A DNA stretch of 64,000 bases from Paucibacter sp. TC2R-5. Lineage in GTDB: Bacteria > Pseudomonadota > Gammaproteobacteria > Burkholderiales > Burkholderiaceae_C. The translations under genes and the position numbers were made by a program. The notes under the pieces are model-generated. The model was not told the DNA's origin. It worked only from the letters and a program-made list of their open reading frames with translations, and did not search any database. Positions 47,988 through 53,090 of this stretch are shown in pieces. How positions within the stretch are numbered: position 1 is the stretch's first letter; every line of letters starts with the position of its first letter. Location: NCBI RefSeq assembly GCF_025717605.1, contig NZ_JAJIRQ010000006.1:254015-318014 (forward strand). The letters run 5' to 3'.

Positions 47988-48902
47988 TCAGGCCGCAGCG
48001 CGTTTCGCCAGCAAGGCTCTGCCGAGTCTTGACACCGGCGGCCGCCCCAACACGCCGGAGATAAAGGCGCCGGCGTCGACCAGCTTGTCGATGTCGATGC
48101 CGGTCTCGATGCCCAGGCCATTAAGCATGAAGACCACGTCTTCGGTCGCCACATTGCCGGTCGCGCCCTTGGCATAAGGGCAGCCGCCCAGGCCTGCCAC
48201 GCTGGCGTCGAAGGTGTGGATGCCCATCTCCAGGCAGGCATAGATATTCGACAGGGCCTGGCCATAGGTGTCATGGAAATGCCCGCTGACCTCGACCAGC
48301 GGGTAATGCTTCAAGGCCCGCTCCATCGCCGCCTGAATCCTTCTGGGCGTGCCAACGCCGATGGTGTCCGCCACGCCCAGATGATCAACGCCTATGCCCT
48401 TCATCAGCAGCACGACTCGCTCGACCTGGTCCGCGCTGATATCGCCCTCGTAAGGGCAGCCGACCGCGCAAGACAGCGCACCGCGCACCTTGATGCCGGC
48501 CGCGTGGGCGGCTTCCACCACCGGGGCAAAGCGCTCAATGCTCTCGGCAATCGAGCAGTTGATGTTCTTTTGGCTGAAGGCTTCGGACGCTGCGGCGAAG
48601 ACGACGATTTCATCGGGCTGGGTAGGCAGAGCCGCTTCCAAACCCTTCATATTCGGTGTCAGCACCGAATAGCGCACGCCGGGATGACGGGCTATGGCCG
48701 CCATCACCGCAAGGTTGTCGGCCATCTGCGGCACCCATTTCGGGCTGACGAAACTGCTCACCTCGATCTCGCGCAGGCCGGCCAGATAAAGCATCTCGAC
48801 CAACTGCGCCTTGTGCTCGGTGGTAACCAGCTCTTTCTCGTTTTGCAGGCCGTCGCGCGGACCGACGTCGACCAGCGTAACGCGGGAAGGGAGCGTGCTC
48901 AT
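47988..48902 (-). CDS. mvaB: Hydroxymethylglutaryl-CoA lyase
   Basis: A 304-aa enzyme that cleaves HMG-CoA to acetyl-CoA and acetoacetate, the last step of leucine degradation. It has the N-terminal VTLVDVGPRDGLQNEK, the metal-site HFHDTYGQAL, and the catalytic cysteine segment GLGGCPYAKGATGNVATED near residue 240. The start overlaps the stop of liuD by ATGA, so it is coupled to the carboxylase. Confidence 0.96.
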   Translation of the reverse strand: MSTLPSRVTLVDVGPRDGLQNEKELVTTEHKAQLVEMLYLAGLREIEVSSFVSPKWVPQMADNLAVMAAIARHPGVRYSVLTPNMKGLEAALPTQPDEIVVFAAASEAFSQKNINCSIAESIERFAPVVEAAHAAGIKVRGALSCAVGCPYEGDISADQVERVVLLMKGIGVDHLGVADTIGVGTPRRIQAAMERALKHYPLVEVSGHFHDTYGQALSNIYACLEMGIHTFDASVAGLGGCPYAKGATGNVATEDVVFMLNGLGIETGIDIDKLVDAGAFISGVLGRPPVSRLGRALLAKRAAA

Positions 48903-50899
48903 TGCGCTGTCTCCAAACGCAGCAACTCGGCGCCGTCACCGATCTGATCACCGACGGCGAACAGCAACTCGGCCACCACGCCGTCGCGCGGAGCACTGAT
49001 CGTGTGTTCCATTTTCATCGCCTCCATCACCGCCAGCGGCTGACCCTTGGCTACGGCATCGCCGACCTGAGCCAGAAAGCCAACCAACTTGCCCGGCATC
49101 GGCGCGGTCAGGCGGCCGCCTTCGGCCGGGCCGCTGCCGGCGCGGGCGATCACGTCGATCTCGATCACCAGGGCCGAGCCGGTCGGCGCGAACACTGCCA
49201 CCGTTTCGCCCTCGGCATAGGTTTTGACGGTGATGCGCTGCTGGTTGAGCCCTTCACCCAAAAGCAGCTCATGCGCTTCCAGGCTGGCCGAGTTGGCCGC
49301 GAAGGCGATCGCCTCACCGGCCACCGTCAACTGCATGCCGCCCTGGTGATGGCGCGACAGCAAGACCTCGTGGTGCACGCCGGAAATCTCCAGATCGAAG
49401 CGGCGCGACGAGGCGCCGTACATGCGCCAGCCGTCACGGCGGCTCCAGGGGTCGCTGGTTTGCAGAGTTGCTTCGGCCGCCAGCGTGTGGGCGACCACGG
49501 CCGCTGCGCTGAGACTCAAAGGCAAGCCGGGCTGCTCGAACAAAGCGGCGCGCTCGCGCTCGATCAGCGCGGTGTCGAGGTCGGCGCTTGCAAAGGATGC
49601 GGCCCCTGCGCAGCGGCGCAGGAATGCCACATTGGTTTGCAGGCCGACGATATGGGTGTCGCGCAGCGCGGCGTCCAAGCGCGCCAAGGCTTCAGCCCTG
49701 TCTTCGCCCCAGACGATCAGCTTGGCGACCATCGAGTCGTAATAGGGGCTGATCGCGTCGCCCTCGTCCACGCCGGCATCGATGCGCACATTGCCGCGCT
49801 GAAACTTCACGTGTTCAGGCCAGCGCGCCACATGCAGCGCGCCGGTGGCGGGCAGGAAGCCGGCATCGGGGTTTTCGGCGCAGATGCGCGCCTCGATCGC
49901 GTGGCCGGTCATCGTCAATTGCTCTTGCTTCAGCGGCAGCGGCTCGCCGGCGGCGACGCGCAATTGCCACTCGACCAAGTCCTGCCCCGTGATGGCTTCC
50001 GTCACCGGATGCTCGACCTGCAGGCGGGTGTTCATTTCCATGAAATAGAAGCGCCCGTCTTGCTCACAGATGAACTCGACCGTACCGGCGCCGCTGTAGC
50101 CCACCGCCTTGGCCGCCGCGACTGCCGCGCCGCCCATCTGGGCGCGGCGCTCGGCCGTCATGCCCGGCGCGGGCGCTTCTTCCAGCACCTTCTGGTGGCG
50201 CCGCTGCACCGAGCAATCGCGCTCGAACAGATAGACGCAGTCGCCGAAATTGTCGCCAAAGACCTGGATTTCGATATGGCGCGGGCGCTGCACATAACGC
50301 TCGATCAAGACTGCATCGTCGCCAAAGCTGTTGATCGCTTCGCGCTTGCAGGACGCCAGGGCCGCGTCGAACTCGTCTGACTGATAGACCGCCCGCATGC
50401 CTTTGCCGCCGCCGCCGGCGCTGGCCTTGATCAGGACGGGGAAGCCAATGCGCTCGGCCTCGGCACGCAGCAGCGCCGGGTCTTGGTCGGCGCCGTGGTA
50501 ACCGGGCACCAGCGGCACGCCGGCCGTCTCCATCAGGCGCTTGGATTCGGCCTTCAGGCCCATGGCCTGGATGGCGGCGGGTGAAGGGCCGATGAAGGCG
50601 ATGCCGTTGGCCGCGCAGGCGGTGGCAAAGGCTTCGTTCTCGCTCAGGAAGCCGTAGCCGGGATGGACGGCTTCGGCGCCGGTGGCTTTGGCCGCATCGA
50701 TGATGCGCTGCCATTGCAGATAAGAGTCGCGGGGTGCGGGGCCGCCGATCAGGATGGCCTCATCGCAGGCCTGGACATGCTTGGCTTTGGCGTCGGCGTC
50801 GGAGTAGACGGCAACGGTTTTGATGCCCATTCGGCGGGCGGTGGCCGCGACGCGGCAGGCGATTTCGCCGCGGTTGGCGATCAGGATTTTCTTGAACAT
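48899..50899 (-). CDS. liuD: Methylcrotonyl-CoA carboxylase alpha subunit (biotin carboxylase plus BCCP)
   Basis: A 666-aa biotin enzyme subunit. The biotin carboxylase domain starts MFKKILIANRGEIACRV, the ATP-grasp glycine-rich loop is KASAGGGGKGMR, and EMNTRLQVEHPVTE is the catalytic block. The biotin-accepting lysine lies in VMEAMKMEHT at about residue 630. The architecture is shared with propionyl- and geranyl-CoA carboxylases; the neighbours mvaB, liuC and liuB identify it as the leucine enzyme. GGAG is visible before ATG 50899. Confidence 0.92.
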   Translation of the reverse strand: MFKKILIANRGEIACRVAATARRMGIKTVAVYSDADAKAKHVQACDEAILIGGPAPRDSYLQWQRIIDAAKATGAEAVHPGYGFLSENEAFATACAANGIAFIGPSPAAIQAMGLKAESKRLMETAGVPLVPGYHGADQDPALLRAEAERIGFPVLIKASAGGGGKGMRAVYQSDEFDAALASCKREAINSFGDDAVLIERYVQRPRHIEIQVFGDNFGDCVYLFERDCSVQRRHQKVLEEAPAPGMTAERRAQMGGAAVAAAKAVGYSGAGTVEFICEQDGRFYFMEMNTRLQVEHPVTEAITGQDLVEWQLRVAAGEPLPLKQEQLTMTGHAIEARICAENPDAGFLPATGALHVARWPEHVKFQRGNVRIDAGVDEGDAISPYYDSMVAKLIVWGEDRAEALARLDAALRDTHIVGLQTNVAFLRRCAGAASFASADLDTALIERERAALFEQPGLPLSLSAAAVVAHTLAAEATLQTSDPWSRRDGWRMYGASSRRFDLEISGVHHEVLLSRHHQGGMQLTVAGEAIAFAANSASLEAHELLLGEGLNQQRITVKTYAEGETVAVFAPTGSALVIEIDVIARAGSGPAEGGRLTAPMPGKLVGFLAQVGDAVAKGQPLAVMEAMKMEHTISAPRDGVVAELLFAVGDQIGDGAELLRLETAQ

Positions 50900-50939
50900 G
50901 CTGTTTGTCTCCAGTCTCGTGAACTTTGAACTTTCTCTG

Positions 50940-50964
50940 GCACTTCTAGATCACTGAGAAGTGC
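50940..50964. promoter_or_regulatory. Inverted repeat upstream of liuD
   Basis: GCACTTCT (50940-50947) and AGAAGTGC (50957-50964) form a perfect 8-bp repeat with a 9-bp centre, 41 bp before the liuD start. It could be an operator or a leader hairpin; the palindromes near liuB have other sequences. Confidence 0.45.
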
Positions 50965-51020
50965 TGCAATATCTTCATTTCGTCGGGGCTTCGCTGCAAC
51001 TTCGTCATCCTTCCCAGACC

Positions 51021-51290
51021 GTGCCGGGTGTTCGCCCCGGCAGGCGACCTTCTTTCTTGGGCGTCCAAGAAAGAAGGCAAAGAAACCGCCCCTGCCGCAT
51101 GGCCCTGCGGGTCCGCTGTGGTGCTCAAGTTCGCAGGGCCGCGCCCAACTCACTGCGCTACGCTCCGTTCAGACAAGGGGCGCGAAACCAGTTCTTGCAG
51201 TCGCTTCGCGACGCCCTGCAAACTTTCCGCTCCTCGCCCACGCAGAAGGGGAACCCCGGAATACCAATACGCCTCGCTTCGCATCGGCTG
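51021..51290 (+). repeat. Copy A of a 270-bp GC-rich intergenic repeat
   Basis: About 270 bp that recur in inverted orientation at 51714-51983. Shared blocks include GCCCCGGCAGGCGACC, a 30-bp near-palindrome (51048-51077), AAACCGCCCCTGCCGCATGG, CGCGCCCAACTCACT, CAAGGGGCGCGAA, CTCCTCGCCCA and AGAAGGGGAACCCCG. The open frames over it differ between copies and look spurious, so I read it as non-coding. Confidence 0.85.
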
Positions 51291-51399
51291 ATCCAGCACT
51301 CGCGCCCGTCGTTGGAGTTCGCGTTCGCTCACTACAACCTACCCAGCCAACAAAAACTAAAAAACTGCGCGGTGAATTTAGACAGGCAACTCGGCAAAT

Positions 51400-51639
51400 T
51401 CAGTTTCTCCGCCCGCTCCTACCATCCATAAAAACAGAAACAATTGCAAAGGGTAAAAACACCGGCCAAACCATCGCGATACCGACGCCCGAAGCAAAAC
51501 GTGAAACACACGAATCTGCGAAAACGCGGTGACCAATAAGAGGGCAGTCACCTCGAACAAGCCCGGCCACCGAATAAATCAGGCCAATGAATATAAAAAA
51601 GAGTCCGCCCCATTGGTAAATTGACTGGAACAGTTGCAT
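51400..51639 (-). CDS. Small two-TM membrane protein in lower-GC spacer
   Basis: A 79-aa protein that I do not recognise. Helix 1 is GGLFFIFIGLIYSVAGLV (about residues 11-28) and helix 2 is VGIAMVWPVFLPFAIVSVFM (about 52-71); a cysteine-containing loop lies between (RGDCPLIGHRVFADSCVSRF). It ends in a basic tail DGRSGRRN. An AAGG lies about 11 bases before ATG 51639. The DNA is visibly poorer in G+C than its surroundings and lies between two inverted repeats, suggesting acquisition. Whether it is expressed is unknown. Confidence 0.5.
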   Translation of the reverse strand: MQLFQSIYQWGGLFFIFIGLIYSVAGLVRGDCPLIGHRVFADSCVSRFASGVGIAMVWPVFLPFAIVSVFMDGRSGRRN

Positions 51640-51713
51640 TTACTGCCGAACCTTCTGACCGAGATATCGCGAAACAACTATTGCCCTGTCTCCCGAGCGG
51701 CACGGCTCTAGCG

Positions 51714-51983
51714 AGCCGATGCGCAGCGAGGCGTGTCGGTATTTCGGGGTTCCCCTTCTGCATGGGCGAGGAGCGGAAGGTTTGCCGGGCGTCGCGTAGC
51801 GACTTCAAAGACTGAATTCGCGCCCCTTGTTTGAACGCAGCGTAGCGAAGTGAGTTGGGCGCGGCCCGGTAAACCTGAGCACTGCAGCGAACCCGAAGGG
51901 CCATGCGGCAGGGGCGGTTTCTTTGCCTTCTTTCTTGGGCGCCCAAGAAAGAAGGTCGCCTGCCGGGGCGAAATCCCGGCATC
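51714..51983 (-). repeat. Copy B of the 270-bp GC-rich intergenic repeat
   Basis: Inverted copy of 51021-51290, similar at most positions over the whole length. Its internal 30-bp palindrome (51926-51955) is perfect, whereas copy A has one mismatch. Homology stops abruptly at both ends. The outer end lies 37 bp from the bioB stop. Confidence 0.85.
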
Positions 51984-52019
51984 GGCCTCAACGACAAAGC
52001 AATGCCCACAAAACCGGCC

Positions 52020-53090
52020 TCAGTGCGAGTGGCAACTCACCTTGCCGCAACCATCCTCAGCAGCAGCCTGCGGCACCAACTTCTCCTCGGTAGCGCACCG
52101 CATCCCCAGCCGATCCAGCAGCGCCCTATCCTTCTCCGCCTGCGGATTGCTCGTCGTCAGCAACTTGTCCCCATAGAACATCGAGTTAGCCCCCGCCAAG
52201 AAGCACAGCGCCTGCATGCTCTCAGGCATCTCTTCACGCCCGGCCGACAAGCGCACCATCGCACGTGGCATGGTGATCCGCGCCACCGCGATCGATCGGA
52301 TGAACTCGAACGGATCCAAAGCCTCGGCGTCGGCCAAAGGCGTGCCCTCGACCTTGACCAAGTTATTGATCGGCACCGACTCCGGATACGGATTCAGATT
52401 GGCCAACTGCACGATCAAGCCAGCCCGCTGACCGCGCGTCTCGCCCAGCCCAACGATGCCGCCCGAGCAAACCTTTAAGCCCACATTGCGCACCCGGTCC
52501 AGCGTATCCAGCCGGTCCTGATAAGTACGCGTGGTGATGATCTGGCCGTAGAACTCGGGCGAGGTATCGAGATTGTGGTTGTAGTAGTCAAGGCCTGCCT
52601 CGGCCAATTGCTCGGCCTGGCCGTCACCCAACATACCGGCGGTCAAGCAGGTTTCCAGGCCCAGGGCCTTGACCTCCTTGACCATCTCACCAATCGCTTC
52701 CAAATGACGATCTTTCGGGGTGCGCCAAGCGGCACCCATGCAAAAACGGGTGGCGCCATTGGCCTTGGCCGCACGCGCCGCTTCCAGCACTTCTTGCAGC
52801 GGGATCAGCTTCTCGGCCTTCAGGCCGGTGTCGAAATGCGCCGACTGTGGGCAGTAAGCGCAGTCTTCCTCACAGCCGCCGGTCTTGATAGACAGCAGCG
52901 TGGACAGCTGCACCGCATTGGCGTCGAAGTTCTCGCGGTGCACCTGCTGGGCGCGGAACATCAGGTCATTGAAGGGCAGGTCATACAGCGCCACCACCTC
53001 TTTGACCGTCCAGGTCCTATTGCTGCGGCGCTCGGCGTCGGTGGTCGGCGTCAGCGACTGAATTTGATTGACGGTTTGGGAGTGGGTCAT
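52020..53090 (-). CDS. bioB: Biotin synthase
   Basis: A 356-aa radical SAM enzyme that inserts sulfur into dethiobiotin, the last step of biotin synthesis. The cluster motif is CEEDCAYC (CxxxCxxC, about residues 68-75). Other BioB blocks are [23 protein letters not shown] and [15 protein letters not shown]. The C-terminus ends in a short His/Cys tail (CGKVSCHSH). ATG 53090 was chosen; the frame is open upstream through bioD but with no family similarity. It is the last of the bioA-F-D-B run. Confidence 0.97.

Follow-up and report, generated by a model that had tools for sequence, protein, structure and literature searches.

Paired palindromic repeats with changing contents between bioB and liuD and at other chromosomal sites in Paucibacter sp. 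TC2R-5 and its relatives

Introduction

In the minimal mobile elements of Neisseria, different genes are found between conserved neighbours and are exchanged by homologous recombination. REP units are short sequences. REPINs, which are doublets of REP units and occur with RAYT transposases, are described as inverted pairs of repeats around a spacer, which are extragenic, are predicted to form a hairpin as a single strand, and have no transposase of their own (PMC3116915). Transposase-free short repeats lie on either side of foreign genes in the TIME-COMPs (PMC13367494), while the MITE-bounded integrons (PMC3934969) have repeats around foreign genes, some of which are integron genes. Integron arrays and CALINs contain cassettes with attC sites (PMC12444791).

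The present analysis concerns a pair of inverted repeats between bioB and liuD in Paucibacter sp. TC2R-5, which an earlier note had read, from the DNA letters, as a mobile composite element. A description of the repeat family was not found in the open-access literature, as far as titles and the first lines of abstracts extend. The element is real, and it is more organised than the earlier reading saw. The best description, to which we give about an even chance, is a REPIN-like long palindrome serving as a platform for cargo.

Results

The window, i.e., the whole stretch of 64,000 nt that was analysed, is G000:C42:254015-318014, where G000 designates the window's own genome (5.13 Mb). It includes the following features:

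48899..50899, minus strand: liuD, flanking gene; among NCBIfam models a biotin carboxylase subunit fits best, scoring just below the cut-off
51021..51290, plus strand: left arm (liuD side); GCCGGG hairpin at the outer end, at 51022, and inner end GCATCGGCTG at 51290
51291..51713, no strand: cargo spacer, 50.6% GC; relatives differ at the same site
51297..51343, no strand: 47-bp piece adjoining the left arm, common to G005 and G001 beside the liuD-side arm
51400..51639, minus strand: 79-aa frame with two hydrophobic stretches, a candidate gene
51714..51983, minus strand: right arm (bioB side), an inverted copy, 90% to the left arm
52020..53090, minus strand: bioB, flanking gene; NCBIfam model TIGR00433 above the cut-off, with a start codon of our choice

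The name liuD is that of the earlier note, and liuE is the name that we assume for its gene; liuE matches the hydroxymethylglutaryl-CoA lyase model of NCBIfam. The arms form an inverted pair of 268 nt each (51022-51289 and 51714-51981), with 90% complementarity and a gap of 424 nt, and the left arm has a GC content of 64.1%, as against 50.6% in the spacer. Inverted repeats of about 270 bp, a spacer of lower GC content, an insertion between bioB and liuD (both of which are on the minus strand), and the lack of a transposase between the arms had all been claimed previously, and these claims were borne out. The two arms of the window are closer to each other than is usual for one element (median 77%), and this copy is without the inner GGGTCAGGTC..GACCTGACCC module that many copies outside bioB-liuD carry. 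The 47-bp piece beside the liuD-side arm has 89% identity in G005 and 83% in G001, where it is 46 bp long, and is an older residue of the core. An Rfam search over positions 50500-52500 with E values up to 1 gave a single match (E value 0.33, below the gathering score) inside bioB; a known RNA family was rejected for the arms, which have no Rfam match.

The arm matches 15 places in G000, including the two arms of the window and two short matches inside these. Eleven places, again including the window's two arms, match with E values of at most 4e-55, and the repeat is thus not due to chance. The arm search covered 16 genomes of the genus, the window's own included, and one from another genus. 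Of its 183 match rows, 146 from 14 genomes were entered; those omitted were 33 around query positions 27-58 (the small palindrome of the arm), three weak ones in G022 and one in G003. Merging joined eleven rows to neighbours less than 250 bp away on the same strand and left 135 copies; it may hide a direct duplicate: one merged case in G005 (C52, about 430432-431029) has overlapping query positions and is possibly a direct partial duplicate. The earlier note had recommended a BLASTN search to map copies of the repeat, and the repeats proved to be a multicopy family. Arm length is about 255-285 bp across the family. As for the precise ends, the inner ends are sharp and the outer ends are modular, by eye, with a GGCCCA/TGGGCC extension and with an extra inverted stretch of about 25 bp in copies outside bioB-liuD in G000, G001, G004 and G005. 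The inner module, GGGTCAGGTC..GACCTGACCC, measures 80-125 bp in many copies outside bioB-liuD. The GGGTCAGGTC module occurs as a tandem pair next to one G000 arm that lies close to the end of a contig (L020:2363-2446 and 2491-2574, 128 bp apart).

Copies of the repeat are paired in a characteristic way. Among 47 cases of neighbours less than 5 kb apart, 44 are oriented '+-', with the GCCGGG hairpin end outside, three are '-+', and none is direct, while 47 of the 135 copies lack any neighbour that close. The three '-+' cases were rejected as a separate type, as they correspond to a methionine-transporter-like operon of 2.8-2.9 kb between two palindromic elements in G003, G007 and G015 (L069, L079 and L089); of the G007 operon proteins, one matches the MetI model above its cut-off, and the matches to the MetN and MetQ models are below theirs. 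The arms of the 44 '+-' pairs are separated by 45-53 bp in 11 pairs, by 63-218 bp in 15, and by 423-2165 bp in 18. The last group, referred to here as filled, was found in G000, G001, G004, G005 and G012, and in two of its members the second arm is only fragmentary (61 nt in L060 and 87 nt in L061, the latter where a contig ends). In the family, a query made of an empty element matched 117 of 250 genomes, in 80 of 141 genera, mostly through the outer 75-110 bp; this number is a lower bound, because two candidates were scored per genome. Three weak plasmid records and no record of the phage collection matched, and a plasmid- or phage-borne element was rejected on these grounds.

Structure and arm comparisons were built on 56 full-length arms. 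The predicted consensus structure has 54 pairs, 21 of which have changes on both sides. Paired cells amount to 96.8%, compared with 88.5% for shuffled and 36.0-49.2% for slid versions, and double-change cells to 280 compared with 106, in a count that favours the structure both because the fold was predicted from the same alignment and because the rows are related. None of 500 shuffles reached the values of the arms for paired cells, double changes, the 21 pairs or the covariation score; further pair types are not clearly above shuffles, 46 of 500 reaching the observed number. As single-stranded DNA, one empty element has a predicted energy of -248.7 kcal/mol (z -20.9 relative to 100 shuffles). 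Since the pairs fall within one arm, the constraint exceeds that of arm-to-arm pairing. Judged from the alignment, the arms carry a covarying secondary structure.

The bioB-liuD site was compared across species. Both arms with different insides are present in G000, G001, G004, G005 and G012, the longest plausible frames being 79, 173, 134, 119 and up to 237 aa, respectively, and the flanking genes are about 80-92% identical over the species that keep arms. G009 has both arms with a core of 50 bp between bioB and liuD, along with about 0.9 kb extra on the bioB side, and in G017 two arms separated by 160 bp adjoin liuD. Matches to the 134-aa protein of G004 (E values 3e-6 to 4e-4) extend over 28 residues between the two arms of G017 and over 26 residues in G013 and G016, where they adjoin the arm. 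G006 and G015 retain an acetyltransferase gene together with the arm on the bioB side, and bioB and liuD lie close together without arms in G002, G011 and G014. Among 40 of the 80 named loci, an arm was found in five (G009, G010, G012, G013 and G015); in the 35 armless ones, bioB and liuD are less than 500 bp apart in 29 and 2.0-2.8 kb apart in three, and three have no liuD match. The presence of arms in some relatives and their absence in others indicates either that a subgroup acquired the element or that others lost it, and that it has since been retained. Both the empty sites that the earlier note had suggested looking for and variation of the contents between relatives were thus found. 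An integron integrase gene, whole or in part, immediately follows liuE on its far side in three relatives, at about 4 kb from the element (L184, G013:C27; L185, G017:C44; L186, G016:C167), with attC sites near it in G013 and G016, and this is perhaps an ancestral integron site.

The previous reading of a composite mobile element, in which inverted MITE-like copies carry a gene along with the help of a transposase in trans, is in keeping with multicopy inverted repeats around single genes and with armless sites in relatives. It is nevertheless improbable. Direct repeats of at least 6 bp were found at 2 of 37 elements, where 0.75 were expected from shuffled flanks, so that the recommended check for target duplications gave nothing beyond shuffled flanks and a composite element with target duplication was rejected. 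Furthermore, arms are constant at orthologous sites while their contents differ, no cargo was found at a second locus, and near-empty pairs are as common as filled ones (26 versus 18). The multicopy repeats and the turnover of the contents lend the earlier claim partial support; movement of arms and cargo as a unit is not supported. Arms at the same site with changing insides, together with the lack of target duplication, point instead to a fixed platform with exchangeable cargo.

Other loci were compared in the same manner. Three different contents occupy locus B in G000, G004 and G005. At locus G, G001 and G004 are alike over about 365 bp beside one arm and then diverge. Locus D is empty, with 63 bp in G000 and 75 bp in G004, and locus K is nearly so, with 99 bp in G009 and 76 bp in G015; the locus D flank, employed as a probe for an empty site, matched 5 of 18 genomes, at full length only G004 besides G000. 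At locus C, G000 and G004 have a common cargo (91% identity), and that of G005 differs. The same cargo gene was not found at two different element loci among those compared. An invertible switch, in which recombination between the arms flips the cargo on and off, would make use of long inverted repeats around a gene. We consider it extremely improbable: the cargo of locus C, the sole one common to two species, has the same orientation relative to the flanks in both, on which ground the switch was rejected, and the interior is shorter than 250 bp in 26 of the 44 pairs.

In comparisons of unlike contents at loci A, B, C and E, the homology spans flank and arm and stops at a point from a few bases before the inner end of the arm to about 110 bp further in. 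This bears on the view that the arms do nothing specific and mark a passive safe site, i.e., ordinary intergenic repeats whose interruption is costless and in whose loops foreign genes accumulate by illegitimate insertion and selection. The mixed nature of the cargo (13 of 18 filled elements lack attC), the occurrence of dispersed attC cassettes outside elements as well, and the fact that the arms are less than 250 bp apart in all 18 pairs counted in G003 and G009 would agree with it. Against it, the insertions lie between the arms, the breaks in homology occur at the inner ends or no more than about 110 bp from them and are not scattered, and one site has been refilled in several species. We regard the safe site as rather unlikely.

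Kinship among arms was tested on full-length arms only, so that some true partners are missing from the figures that follow. The arms of loci B-G look mosaic, 12 of 14 (in G000, G001, G004 and G005) having at least one half nearest to another or an unassigned locus. Six of the seven full-length arms of locus A (G000, G001, G004, G005 and G015) group with locus A in at least one half, and ectopic exchange is therefore not evident there. Median likeness is 0.77 between the two arms of one element (11 pairs) and 0.84 between arms of orthologous loci (61 pairs); thus, no general homogenisation within an element is seen.

The cargo is of several kinds. Pfam domains were found in 5 of 10 cargo proteins (TIR_2/SEFIR, PIN_12, DUF4357, DUF4326 and Ivy), the other five having none, and four more cargo proteins have GNAT (twice), tautomerase and DUF488 domains. 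Integron integrase (IntI) matches exceed the curated cut-off in 13 of 18 genomes of the genus; in the control search, matches occurred in 14 genomes, none above the cut-off. In G000, a full-length integrase gene (C42:199546-200490) lies about 54 kb before the start of the window in a stretch of 18 kb with 13 attC sites (L175, G000:C42:192000-210000), and a second attC array (L277, G000:C41:248000-261000) lies near a broken piece of an integrase gene. None of the elements examined was found to contain an integrase gene.

A covariance model of attC, built from 14 sites, was run on the window and on 54 loci with arms or arm fragments (263,562 bases). Seven distinct attC sites at E values below 0.01 were found, all between arms, in L060, L072, L075, L076 and L077; loci B, E and G are those concerned, and the five make up the attC-bearing part of the 18 filled elements. 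When 20 sources were scanned without filters, nothing further appeared below an E value of 0.28. The model supersedes a hand-made attC pattern, which had matched the spacers four times compared with 2.2 in shuffles. Two cassettes are in tandem in L077, where the attC site closest to the arm appears truncated. In five whole genomes, the attC sites among those listed are mostly in arrays and some are dispersed; no arm was found in seven dispersed stretches examined. The Ivy-like cargo of G004 at bioB-liuD shares 53% identity with a G000 gene on C41 that lies between two attC sites. Of 22 cargo proteins, this one and an acetyltransferase (33%) match 274 kb of integron-bearing stretches; in 723 kb of other loci, two proteins matched, each only to itself, their own genomes being represented there. 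Relatives of the acetyltransferase cargo of G015 and G006 occur in 5 of 200 genomes of the family, one of them in G000, and no arm or attC was found in the stretches surrounding them. Under the platform reading, with its even chance, a part of the cargo would be drawn from the bacteria's own pool of integron cassettes.

The integron integrase might also insert cassettes straight into the loop, which would then be an attG-like secondary site. Insertion at attG is reported for other bacteria (PMC12901181, PMC12444791). The frequency of IntI in the genus, the presence of attC between the arms of five elements, and the tandem cassettes of L077 fit with this proposal. In most filled elements, by contrast, no attC is detectable, and the attC of L077 that is nearest the arm looks shortened. 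We consider direct insertion unlikely. A broader reading, in which the palindromes are the dispersed counterpart of integrons and are partly fed by them, and in which the folded arms would be a signal for copying and for cargo exchange, is possible though doubtful. It would make them structured docking sites across the chromosome that have no integrase themselves, each with one or two exchangeable accessory genes, and the kinds of cargo concerned are TIR, PIN, DUF4357, DUF488/DUF4326, Ivy, acetyltransferase and tautomerase.

The cargo of the window itself is the least distinct. The 79-aa frame begins with ATG, has the purine-rich sequence AGAAGG upstream, and reaches Kyte-Doolittle maxima, over 19 residues, of 2.05 (residue 10) and 2.23 (residue 52). 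When the spacer was shuffled by mononucleotides, 190 of 2000 versions (9.5%) also contained an ATG frame this long or longer, and the third-position GC content is 0.47 for the frame compared with 0.83 for liuD and 0.80 for liuE. The protein has no Pfam match, and no relatives were found in the genome contigs (pattern scan, then tblastn) or in the plasmids, two collections in which the window's own genome is possibly absent. Spacer DNA showed no similarity to the genus genomes past about 55 bp adjoining the left arm, and the covariance model found no attC in the element (no match at an E value below 2). Of the two-helix membrane protein proposed previously, the frame and the two hydrophobic stretches stand; its coding nature is weakly supported, in view of the shuffles, the third-position GC content and the lack of relatives. 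The frame is not kept at bioB-liuD in relatives, and the suggested homology searches returned neither relative nor domain.

Transposases of the type associated with REP sequences were examined as well. Y1_Tnp matches, which we take to mark RAYT-type loci, occur in all 18 genomes of the genus. An arm was not found beside such a gene at 30 Y1_Tnp loci (best E value 0.24), and parts of the inner modules of other copies match repeats at the Y1_Tnp loci of G005, G002 and G003 (E values 5e-8 to 2e-6). G000 has two Y1_Tnp genes, one at C42:239426-239749, about 14 kb before the window, and one at C34:207912-208238, which has a GGGGTCAGGTTCATTTA-like repeat on either side, the two being in inverted orientation. 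There are 31 matches in G017, many of them fragments at contig ends, compared with one to four in the other 17 genomes; this is an expanded transposase family.

Discussion

We propose, again at about even confidence, that the element between bioB and liuD is one filled copy of a long palindromic family that forms a fixed cassette platform with REPIN-like architecture and without an integrase of its own. The arms are paired, folded and stable in position; the contents between them change, and attC sites lie between the arms of some copies. The empty element would probably have spread as a single-stranded, REPIN-like unit, for which a transposase acting in trans is proposed. It would then stay put at its site, with the loop as a docking place for single foreign genes, and cargo would be exchanged with arms and flanks left in place, most likely as flanks and arms undergo homologous recombination with incoming or ectopic DNA. 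The routes by which cargo enters and leaves, any benefit to the cell and the origin of the window's own cargo are what we infer.

If this proposal is true, bacteria keep and swap accessory and defence-like genes singly at fixed places by means of an element that has neither transposase nor integrase, and integron cassettes gain a destination outside arrays. A widespread repeat, present in at least 117 of 250 family genomes, would gain a use. The bioB-liuD site, with five contents and one bare copy in related species, constitutes a natural experiment on the turnover of single genes.

The likeness to known systems is partial in each case. Different genes between conserved neighbours recall the minimal mobile elements of Neisseria; here, structured repeat arms separate the cargo from the neighbours and recur at many loci. 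The inverted-doublet organisation of REPINs is found in the family (44 '+-', three '-+', no direct pairs), which also shares with them a spacer between the repeats, a predicted single-strand hairpin, an extragenic location and the lack of an own transposase (PMC3116915). The family differs in its arms of about 270 bp with several helices, REPIN units being short, and in spacers of up to 2.2 kb which carry genes. The size of the arms (about 255-285 bp), their absence beside the RAYT-type genes examined and the failure to find target duplication lead us to file the family under neither REPINs nor MITEs. With TIME-COMPs (PMC13367494) and MITE-bounded integrons (PMC3934969), it has in common repeats on both sides of foreign genes; unlike composite MITEs, it is chromosomal, with only three weak plasmid matches, and fixed at orthologous sites, its contents change, and no target duplication was found. 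Some of its cargo has the attC types of the genus's own arrays, as in integron arrays and CALINs (PMC12444791). It differs from these in that most copies lack attC, the elements examined contain no integrase gene and one or two cassettes at most, and arms stand on both sides.
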